NCBI GenBank assembly: GCA_020849475.1
Contig: JADLGE010000009.1
Span: 124,001-188,000, forward strand
Length of the DNA stretch: 64,000 bases
Reading direction: 5' to 3'
DNA from: Gammaproteobacteria bacterium
GTDB taxonomy: Bacteria > Pseudomonadota > Gammaproteobacteria > Ga0077536
Shown piece after piece: positions 4,299 through 35,325 of this stretch; position 1 is the stretch's first letter, and every line of letters begins with the position of its first letter. Under the pieces are notes generated by a model. The model saw nothing but the letters and a program-made list of their open reading frames with translations. It searched no databases and was not told the DNA's origin. The translations under genes and the position numbers were made by a program.

Positions 4299-4327
4299 AA
4301 CGGGGCCACGTGGCCCCGTTTTTTTTT
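4299..4327 (+). terminator. rho-independent terminator after hsp20
   Basis: Perfect palindrome AACGGGGCCACGTGGCCCCGTT followed by a T run. Confidence 0.9.
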
Positions 4328-23248: not shown

Positions 23249-24388
23249 TCAGGCGCCGAGGGCGGCGCTCACACTGCGGTGAAAATGGATGAGCCCCGGC
23301 TCATTGCGCCCGAACAGGATGCTGTCCTGCGCGCCGCTGTGAAAGCCACGCTGGATGCCTTCGCCGACCGGGAAGTCCTCGTTCTCGACCACGTGCACCA
23401 CCAGATCCATGTTCTTGTTCCAATGGCGGCGCGCGGCTTCGCTGTGCGCGGGCTCGGGGGTGTATAGCGACAGCAAGGTAATGGATTCGTCGGGCGTCGC
23501 GCCGGGATGAATCTGCCATAGCTCGATGTGGTCGAGCTGCCACACCAGCACCGTGTTCGGGAACAGCACATAGATGCTGACGATGTGCGGCATGAGGTTC
23601 CAGCGTGGCGCCTGTTCGCCGCGAATTTCTTCGATGCTCTTGCGCGGACTCACCAGGCGGAAATGCGGACCCCAATGGTCGAACGCGCCGAGGTTGTCGT
23701 AGAAGATTGAACAGATCGAATCGCGATGCAGCACGCAGAAGTGATAGGACTCGAGGAAAGTATCCAGCAGCAGCTTCCAGTTCATGCGCCGCGTCAGCGT
23801 GCGCGTCTCATAGTGATGAAAGCCGGCGAGCTTGAAGCTGGCGAGTTCGGCATTGAGCGCGCCGAGGTGGGTGTCGAGATCGAGTGAGTCCTGTGCGCGC
23901 GGCATGACCCAGATGAGACCGTCACGCTCCGCGGTGGCGAGCGGCGTCAGGCCCAGGCTCTCGTGTGGTGCGCCATCGAAAGCGCCATCGGCGGGCCGCA
24001 CCTTGAGCTTGCCATTCATGTCGTAGGACCACGCGTGGTAGGGGCAGACCAGTGCGCGTGCCTTGCCGCATTGCTCGGCAACCCGTGCGCCGCGATGGCG
24101 ACACACGTTGAGGAACGCCTGCACGCGACCTTGCTCATTGCGCGTCAGCAACAAGGGCAGGCCGCTGACATCATGGGTTTGAAAACTGCCGGGCTGCGCA
24201 AGCAGGCCGCTCATGCCGACGCACATCGGCAGGGCGCGAAACAAACGCTGCTGTTCGCGCGCGGCGGTCGCGTGACTGACGTATTCATCCACCGGCTGCA
24301 GATAGAGGTCCGGCGCCATGGCGGTGCTGCGTGTGTCGATGTAGTCGAGCAGTTGGCGACCGAGAGCAATCTGAGCGTCTTGCAGCAT
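23249..24388 (-). CDS. Rieske-type aromatic ring-hydroxylating dioxygenase alpha subunit
   Basis: Rieske ligands CRHRGARV...CPYHAWSYD; mononuclear iron motif around LLDTFLESYHFCVLHRDS. Confidence 0.92.
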   Translation of the reverse strand: MLQDAQIALGRQLLDYIDTRSTAMAPDLYLQPVDEYVSHATAAREQQRLFRALPMCVGMSGLLAQPGSFQTHDVSGLPLLLTRNEQGRVQAFLNVCRHRGARVAEQCGKARALVCPYHAWSYDMNGKLKVRPADGAFDGAPHESLGLTPLATAERDGLIWVMPRAQDSLDLDTHLGALNAELASFKLAGFHHYETRTLTRRMNWKLLLDTFLESYHFCVLHRDSICSIFYDNLGAFDHWGPHFRLVSPRKSIEEIRGEQAPRWNLMPHIVSIYVLFPNTVLVWQLDHIELWQIHPGATPDESITLLSLYTPEPAHSEAARRHWNKNMDLVVHVVENEDFPVGEGIQRGFHSGAQDSILFGRNEPGLIHFHRSVSAALGA

Positions 24389-24470
24389 CTTCGAAACCCG
24401 TGCGTTGCGTGGCCCGAGTATAGCCCGCGACCTGCATGGCACCGATGCGTCTATGCGCTGACGGCGAGGC

Positions 24471-24497
24471 AAAAAAAAGCCCGGCGCGAAGCCGGGC
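24471..24497 (-). terminator. rho-independent terminator reading on the minus strand
   Basis: Minus strand GCCCGGC-ttcgc-GCCGGGC followed by 8 T; it lies upstream of the Rieske gene start, so it is not that gene's 3' terminator. Confidence 0.8.
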
Positions 24498-24630
24498 TTT
24501 CGTTCCGACGGGTGTTGCGTTGGGACCGTCGTGGCGGATCTCTCGCCGGGTCTCGCGACCCGGGTCAATGCTGCCTGGGTGAAGATTAGATCACTTGGCC
24601 GCTGAATGCTCCCCCGAAAATGGGGGGCTA
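24471..24630 (-). ncRNA. candidate structured small RNA or attenuating leader
   Basis: AT-rich tract (about 24635-24700) then, on the minus strand, hairpins CCCCC-attttc-GGGGG and CCGGGTC-GCGA-GACCCGG, ending in the intrinsic terminator; no convincing ORF. Confidence 0.4.
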
Positions 24631-24909
24631 AGGCTTTGTATTATTTATATAAATTCTAGAATATAAAAATAACCCAATGATCTTTATAAATTAAATCCCG
24701 CGCTACTCGAAAAAGCATGAATTGATTTTTTTCAAGGCCGGCATATTTCACGGGTGGTCCCAAGGCCGACCACGAGGGCCGAGCGCGGCCCGGTGGCAGC
24801 CGAGCATACATTCTCTGCCGCGCCCACGTCTTGCGGCCCGCTTTGCCAGAACGCCGTCGGCGCGCTCGGTATATGTACAATGCGGTCAGGTCTCGGGGGG
24901 AGTTCGAGC

Positions 24910-25743
24910 ATGTCGGCGACGTTTTGGCGAGGGCTGTGCCTCGCCCTGCTGGTGATGAGTGCGTGGGGGTCGTGCGCGGCCGCTGAAGAGTCGGAAGTCG
25001 ATGTCTGGGCCACGCTGCTGCGGCCCCAGCATTTCGGCGACCGGGAGATCAGCGAGGGCAAGGATCTGGTCGAACTGCGGCTGCCGGCGCGGGCCGAGGA
25101 CGCCGGCGTGGTGCCAATAAGCATCAACGCCAAGATTCCCCAGACCGCCGAGCGCTACATCCGCACCCTCTACATCTTCATTGATCGCAATCCGCGCCCA
25201 TTGGCCGGCAAGTTCGAGCTGACGCCGGCCATGGGCAAGGCCGACATGGCCATGCGCCTGCGCATCAACCAGTTCACCGACGTACGCGTGGTGGCCGAAA
25301 CCAGCGACGGCCACCTGTACATGGACAAGGGCTACACCCGCGCCAGCGGCGGTTGCTCGGCGCCGCCGCCGTTCCTGGAACTGAAAGAAGCCCGTGAGCA
25401 TATCGGTGAGATGAAGTTTCACGCCCAGAGCAGCGAGCAGGACGGCGACGTGGCTCTCGGCCAACTGCTGATCAGCCATCCGAATATCACCGGCATGCAA
25501 CTCGACCAGCGCACGCGCGCCTACCTGCCGGCGGAATACGTGACCAAGGTGACGTTGAAGTTCAACGGCGAACACATTCTGAGCGCCGAGACCGACATCT
25601 CCATCAGCGAAGACCCGAGCTTCCGTTTCTTCTTCAAGCCCAAGAGCGGCGGCACCATGGTGGCCGAAATGACGGACTCCAAGGGGCGTCAGTTCAGTCA
25701 CAGCTTCGAGGTCGCGGGCGCAGCGGACACCGTCGCCCGCTGA
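24910..25743 (+). CDS. SoxYZ-like fused carrier protein (quinoprotein dehydrogenase-associated type)
   Basis: Signal peptide, SoxY-like N-half ending KGYTRASGGCSAPPP, SoxZ-like C-half (GQLLISHPNITGMQLDQRTRAYLPAEYVTKVTLKFNGEHIL). Confidence 0.82.
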   Translation: MSATFWRGLCLALLVMSAWGSCAAAEESEVDVWATLLRPQHFGDREISEGKDLVELRLPARAEDAGVVPISINAKIPQTAERYIRTLYIFIDRNPRPLAGKFELTPAMGKADMAMRLRINQFTDVRVVAETSDGHLYMDKGYTRASGGCSAPPPFLELKEAREHIGEMKFHAQSSEQDGDVALGQLLISHPNITGMQLDQRTRAYLPAEYVTKVTLKFNGEHILSAETDISISEDPSFRFFFKPKSGGTMVAEMTDSKGRQFSHSFEVAGAADTVAR

Positions 25744-33136: not shown

Positions 33137-33625
33137 TCAATGGGCATGACCGTGCGCATGGGCGTGGTGACCACCGAGCGCAGTGCCGGCGTAGGCGCCG
33201 CTTTCCGGTTCGAACACCACCGCTTCCTCGGTCACCGCAAGGCCCAGCTGCTCGAGCATGTCGGCGAGTACGTGATCGCGCAGACAGCGCACCCAGCCCG
33301 GGCCTACGGCAATTGCGACATGGCGGTTGCCCAGGTGATAGCAGGCCCGCGCGAGGCGTAAGGGATCGCTGGTGCGCGCCGTCATCACCGGCTCCGGCGC
33401 GGCCTGCACGCGCACTACGCACTCATCCTCGCCGCGCAGCAGATCGCCATCGCGCAACACCGTGCCGGGCGGCAGCACGAGGGCCGCTTCGCGGCCGCTG
33501 TCCAGCACCACGCGCTGACGACTTTTCTGGCGTTGCTCAAAGGCCAAGGTCAGCGAATCGTGTATCGGCGCCACTGCGCCGCTGAGTTTCTGTATCAGGC
33601 GTTGCATGGCGCTGCTCCGCATCAA
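33137..33625 (-). CDS. ureE: urease accessory nickel metallochaperone UreE
   Basis: [15 protein letters not shown]; His-rich C-terminus [12 protein letters not shown]. Start may be internal (MQRLIQKL). Confidence 0.95.
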
Positions 33626-35325
33626 AAAAGGAAATAACGCTGCGCCAGCGGCAGCACCGTGGCCGCTTCGCAGGTGAGCAGCTCACCGTCGGCGCGCACT
33701 TCATAGGTCTGGCTGTCGACTTCGATGCGCGGTCGCGCATCGTTCAACACCATGTCGGCCTTGCCGATGCGGCGCGTGTTGCGCACCACGCCGATCAAGC
33801 GCTGCAGACTGAGCTGCGCCGGCACGCCGGCGGCGGCCGCGGCCTGGGAAATGAAAGTCATCGAGGTGGCGCCGAGCGCGCGACCATAGGCGCCGAACAT
33901 CGGCCGGAAATGCACCGGCTGCGGGGTCGGAATGGAGGCATTGGCATCACCCATCGGCGCCGCCACGATCATGCCGCCCTTGATGATGAGGCTGGGCTTG
34001 GCGCCGAAGAAGGCCGGTTTCCACAGCACGAGATCCGCTAGCTTGCCAACGGCAATGCTGCCCACTTCATGGGCAATGCCGTGGGTGATGGCCGGGTTGA
34101 TGCAAATCTTGGCGATGTAGCGTTTGACGCGGCCGTTGTCGTGGCGCGCCGGGTCGCCCGCCAATGCACCGCGCTGCACTTTCATCTTGTGCGCAGTCTG
34201 CCAGGTGCGCGTCACCACTTCGCCGACGCGGCCCATGGCCTGCGAGTCGGATGAGATCATGGAGAACGCGCCCAAGTCATGCAGGATGTCTTCGGCGGCG
34301 ATGGTCTCGCGACGGATGCGTGATTCGGCGAACGCCACGTCTTCGGCGATCGACGGTGACAGGTGATGACAGACCATCAGCATGTCGAGATGCTCATCGA
34401 TGGTGTTGATGGTGTAGGGCCGTGTGGGATTGGTGCTGGACGGCAGCACGTTCGCTTCCATGCACACTTTGATGATGTCGGGTGCGTGACCGCCGCCGGC
34501 GCCTTCGGTGTGATAGGTGTGGATGGCGCGGCCTTTGAACGCCGCCACCGTGTGCTCGACGAAACCCGACTCATTCAAGGTGTCGGTATGGATGGCGACC
34601 TGCACGTCGTGGGCGTCGGCGACCGCCAGACAGTTGTCGATGGCAGCCGGCGTCGTGCCCCAGTCCTCGTGCAGTTTCAAGCCAATCGCGCCTGCCGCGA
34701 CCTGTTGCTCGAGCGCGTCCGGCAGGCTGGCGTTGCCCTTGCCGAGAAAGCCCAGGTTGATGGGCAGGCCTTCAGCGGCTTCGAGCATGCGCGCCATGTA
34801 CCATGGCCCGGGCGTGCAGGTGGTGGCATTGGTGCCGGTGGCGGGGCCGGTGCCGCCGCCGAGCAGGGTGGTGACGCCCGACATCAGCGCCTCATCCACT
34901 TGCTGCGGGCAGATGAAATGGATGTGACTGTCGATGGCGCCGGGCGTGACTATCTGGCCTTCGGCGGCAATCACTTCGGTGCCCGGGCCGATGACGATGT
35001 CGACGCCGGGCTGCACATCGGGGTTGCCGGCCTTGCCGATGGCGACGATGCGGCCGTGACGTACGCCGATGTCGGCTTTGACGATACCCCAGTGATCGAT
35101 GATGAGAGCGTTGGTGATGACGAGATCCACCGCGCGGGTGTTGTCATGCTGGCTCTGGCCCATGCCATCGCGGATGACCTTGCCACCACCAAACGTCACT
35201 TCTTCGCCGTAAATGGTGTGGTCGTGTTCGACTTCGATGATGAGGGCGGTGTCGGCCAGGCGCACACGATCGCCGGTGGTCGGGCCATACATTTCGCCAT
35301 AGGCGCGACGTGAAACGCGGCTCAT
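33622..35325 (-). CDS. ureC: urease subunit alpha
   Basis: [62 protein letters not shown]. Confidence 0.98.

Follow-up and report, generated by a model that had tools for sequence, protein, structure and literature searches.

A candidate trans-acting small RNA gene, probably Hfq-dependent and confined to one genus, between divergent SoxYZ and Rieske oxygenase genes in uncultivated Gammaproteobacteria

On the minus strand of the 64-kb stretch of DNA analyzed here (the window), a strong intrinsic terminator stands shortly before the start of a gene for a Rieske-type oxygenase, which raises the question of whether it ends a separate short transcript or attenuates the oxygenase gene. The preliminary description of this DNA, which offered both readings, had placed the terminator about 80 bp upstream of the Rieske start; the measured distance to the ATG (24388, minus strand) was 82 bp, and it ranged from 67 to 82 bp across three species. 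The other elements that it had listed were likewise present on the minus strand, namely a hairpin CCCCC-ATTTTC-GGGGG (24626-24611), a perfect 7-bp stem with a GNRA loop, CCGGGTC-GCGA-GACCCGG (24563-24546), and the terminator itself, GCCCGGC-TTCGC-GCCGGGC-T8 (24497-24471). The tract at about 24635-24700, described as strongly AT-rich, turned out to be the lowest-GC 100-bp stretch of the window (25% vs. a mean of 64%). The features of the locus are listed in Table 1.

Table 1. Coordinates (window positions) and properties of the features at the candidate small RNA locus.
Feature	Position	Strand	Remarks
SoxYZ fusion protein	24754..25743	+	Pfam PF13501, PF08770; divergent neighbor of the sRNA gene
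AT-rich upstream promoter region	24663..24730	-	ATTCA...TTCGAG conserved; lowest GC of the window
Core promoter-like block, ATTCTAGAATTTATATAAATAATAC	24638..24662	-	Mostly invariant in three genomes; putative promoter
Candidate sRNA gene	24470..24637	-	About 161-168 nt; exact 5' end predicted; kept as a unit in G000, G001, and G002
Hairpin 1, GC-CCCCC-ATTTTC-GGGGG-A-GC	24608..24628	-	5' end of the RNA; stem invariant in three genomes
GNRA hairpin, CCGGGTC-GCGA-GACCCGG	24546..24563	-	Loop of GNRA type in two of the three genomes; compensatory changes at two pairs
Hairpin 4, CGACGG-TCCCAACGCAACAC-CCGTCG	24506..24531	-	C/A-rich open loop as candidate seed region; bases of both stem and loop conserved
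Intrinsic terminator, GCCCGGC-TTCGC-GCCGGGC, T8	24471..24501	-	From scan, with shuffle control; stem invariant, loop varies (three genomes)
Rieske gene -10 box (separate), TATACT	24417..24422	-	Downstream of the sRNA terminator; GGCTATACTC invariant in the genus
Rieske/ring-hydroxylating oxygenase alpha subunit	23249..24388	-	Pfam PF00355, PF00848; downstream neighbor of the sRNA gene

A DNA search of 57 genomes detected full-length homologues of the candidate RNA only in G001 (87% identity) and G002 (76%), both belonging to the same genus, and the remaining matches spanned the terminator only. A search of its own genome found a single copy, and the other two genus members likewise have one copy each. 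The order SoxYZ/RNA/Rieske oxygenase, including the promoter block, was identical in all three genus genomes compared. For the SoxYZ fusion protein, the listed reading frame begins at 24754, and translation probably starts at the ATG near 24910. The related records are MAGs from environmental sources. For the closest relative, the contig (L058; CAMCBY010000109.1) is titled 'Klebsiella pneumoniae', and its genes were 81% identical to those of this lineage; it is probably a mislabelled MAG.

Identity of the RNA in the three genome pairs was 87.2, 75.7, and 75.1%, compared with 77, 72, and 69% for the Rieske coding DNA and 54, 62, and 58% for fourfold-degenerate sites. The RNA is therefore conserved at least as well as the coding DNA next to it and much better than the silent sites of that DNA. 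Conservation dropped at the terminator: the spacer from there to the Rieske start was 62, 58, and 59% identical (shuffle mean, 53%), and identity in the 110 bp preceding the RNA was 68, 62, and 60% (shuffle mean, 50%; maximum, 61%). No ATG was found within the RNA, its only long frame (TTG start) shifted between species, and no reading frame was conserved across the three species. A Rieske protein extended at its N-terminus by reading through the terminator was also considered and rejected, as the frame differs between species. Across the genus, this pattern is that of a predicted non-coding RNA gene under selection, and comparative evidence indicates that the sRNA gene is real and undescribed, although the kind of RNA is already known.

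The fold of the RNA was examined in the same three sequences. Its predicted energy was -70 kcal/mol (z = -3.7), and the z-scores in the three species were -3.7, -3.5, and -1.9. When the named structure (5' hairpin, GNRA hairpin, hairpin 4, and terminator) was considered, 98.9% of cells were paired, compared with 34-55% for slid partners. Covariance analysis of the homologous intergenic regions and a search for the hairpins in close relatives had both been proposed at the outset; the hairpins were kept in both other genus genomes compared, and two pairs of the GNRA hairpin had changed on both sides (GC/AU and UA/CG/GU). Because only three sequences were available, covariation was limited to these two pairs in one helix, and the other stems were invariant and therefore uninformative either way. 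RNAalifold independently recovered the same stems, together with a short GGC..GCC helix that encloses the GNRA hairpin and is conserved in the consensus fold. In addition, a third hairpin, absent from the preliminary description and here called hairpin 4, was with its flanks among the best-conserved parts of the RNA. The bases of its 14-nt loop were conserved, with extra bases inserted within the loop in G002. We regard this three-sequence structural evidence as support, not proof, of a structured RNA.

Both putative ends of the RNA carry recognizable signals. In the core promoter-like block, TATAAA (24649-24644) or AATAAT (24645-24640) may serve as the -10 box, and a promoter scan gave a match at 24667-24640 (minus strand). 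The dyad TTCTAGAA (24661-24654), which lies just upstream of the presumed -10 box, occurs once in the window, has the consensus TTCTnGAA in the three genomes, and is a possible regulator site. The AT-rich region beyond it may represent a UP element or activator sites. Since the -35 box is weak, the predicted promoter may need an activator. At the 3' end, the terminator is one of two perfect-stem terminators of this strength in the 64 kb, the other being near 4318 on the plus strand, and none of equal strength arose in 60 dinucleotide shuffles of the window. The other terminator (ACGGGGCCACGTGGCCCCGT, T8; 4299-4327, plus strand) stands after an apparent gene end.

Rfam was searched at gathering and relaxed thresholds, as had been suggested earlier, and no family reached its gathering score for this RNA; the sub-threshold matches were driven by the terminator. 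The best of these was SorX of Rhodobacter (RF02784; 26.3 bits), which is similar mostly in its terminator. This match was below the gathering score of 46.6, SorX differs in length and body, and the RNA is not a member of that family. Elsewhere in the window, RF02514 (5' ureB sRNA) matched at 34890-35173 on the plus strand (101.7 bits); the match lies within, and antisense to, a urease alpha subunit-like gene (33622-35325, minus strand) and therefore probably reflects coding conservation, not an RNA.

A full covariance model, terminator included, gave weak matches in other genera (E 0.001-0.01). Without its terminator, the model (R2) detected the three genus members and no others in the 36 genomes searched from the order; the weak matches in other genera were gone both there and at the family loci. 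Among 369 genomes of the class, model R2 gave four matches besides this genome (18.7-21.1 bits), which were treated as chance at E values of 0.01-0.08 and not as homologues. Plasmid and viral origins were also considered and rejected: the unit had no match in plasmids, and the hairpin 1 sequence had none in viral contigs. At the covariance-search sensitivity used, the RNA is genus-specific.

Given the observed sequence, its selective conservation, the partial structural support, and the separate promoter-like boxes of the RNA and the Rieske gene, we consider it highly probable that the locus is a free-standing sRNA gene, most likely encoding a stand-alone trans-acting regulator. RNA polymerase would start at the RNA's own AT-rich promoter near 24637, produce a structured non-coding RNA of about 165 nt, and stop at the intrinsic terminator (24471), with the 5' hairpin and the terminator shielding the ends of the transcript. 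Hfq loading probably occurs at the U8 tail, and hfq was found in all three genus genomes. In the RydC-Hfq structure, the U tail of the sRNA terminator contacts the proximal face of Hfq (PMC4337610). The single-stranded parts that are conserved, chiefly the C/A-rich loop of hairpin 4 and the segment between hairpin 1 and the GNRA hairpin, would then pair with distant mRNAs. In the target search, complements of the hairpin 4 loop were no commoner than a reversed-pattern control. Pairing with the Rieske mRNA start had a shuffle fraction of 0.02 in G000, and the fraction was not low in G001 or G002.

A free-standing RNA might instead act as a sponge or protein-binding RNA that titrates a regulatory protein or another sRNA. 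Its several stable, invariant hairpins would suit such a role, as would the target search, which found no mRNA target signal. We nevertheless consider this role improbable: a CsrA sponge is unlikely because the sequence contains few GGA motifs, and the RNA is not 6S RNA because the genome has a separate one. The 6S family (RF00013) resembles the RNA in length; its covariance model had no match here, its sole match in G000 was on contig C47, and each of the three genomes carries elsewhere a 6S gene that scores above the gathering threshold.

Further, a conserved, structured RNA on the same strand and so close before the Rieske start in all three species is also what an attenuating leader or riboswitch would present, with a terminator that opens under some condition and lets transcription run on into the gene. 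However, a conserved -10 box belonging to the Rieske gene itself follows the terminator and lies 31-34 bp before the ATG in the genus. TATACT or TATAAT was found at -31 to -43 in 13 of 25 Rieske orthologues of the family, and the box is retained in genera without any terminator, several of these orthologues lacking one upstream. The gene therefore need not rely on the promoter of the RNA, and, as far as the sequence indicates, the terminator does not lie between its only promoter and its start. The spacer between terminator and gene, moreover, is near background identity. No conserved antiterminator was found, the best alternative pairings with the terminator arms varying in position and length between the three species; the terminator pairs themselves had predicted probabilities of 0.92-1.0. 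No Rfam riboswitch or leader reached its gathering score. Attenuation of the Rieske gene thus appears quite improbable. Of the two readings offered at the outset, the separate transcript, as a predicted sRNA, was well supported by the syntenic promoter/RNA/terminator unit in three of three genomes and its compensatory changes, and the attenuator was not.

It is highly improbable that the region is only promoter or regulator-binding DNA for the divergent genes, next to an unremarkable terminator, as the AT-rich tract and the TTCTnGAA dyad are conserved but the strongest conservation lies downstream of that tract, in hairpins with compensatory changes and an intact terminator that has no upstream same-strand gene to serve.

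A second tract was observed in genus g7 of the same family, where 168 bp were without any difference between G008 (L056, 3858-4025) and G015 (L057) and the surroundings differed at 14.7% of sites. At an even rate, the chance of such an identical run is about 3e-12, by a simple estimate for a stretch picked as the longest. The tract, which ends in a similar GC-rich terminator with T8 and overlaps a small ORF at that frame's 3' end, is located about 500 bp upstream of the orthologous Rieske gene; the terminator-less model R2 did not match it. It may be either a second lineage-specific sRNA candidate or a relative diverged beyond recognition. That both units upstream of Rieske genes descend from one ancestral, fast-evolving sRNA, unrecognizable by sequence and regulating a shared oxidative metabolism, is a doubtful proposition.

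The sRNA of the present genus, probably Hfq-dependent, trans-acting, and confined to it, adds a well-bounded, undescribed family with clear predicted ends in uncultivated Gammaproteobacteria, and leaves the general picture of RNA regulation unchanged. It also shows that comparison of relatives can distinguish an sRNA's own terminator from an attenuator of the next gene. With terminator-based attenuators and riboswitch leaders, the locus shares a structured RNA and a terminator upstream of a same-strand gene, but here the gene's own promoter box follows the terminator and no antiterminator is conserved. The closer likeness is to Hfq-dependent intergenic trans-acting sRNAs of the RydC type. The RNA has no sequence relationship to any known sRNA, and its Hfq binding is predicted, but it resembles them as a discrete, short, structured non-coding unit with a conserved promoter-like region of its own, a GC-rich intrinsic terminator with a long U tail, selective conservation, structural support (two compensatory pairs in three sequences), and a narrow phylogenetic range.
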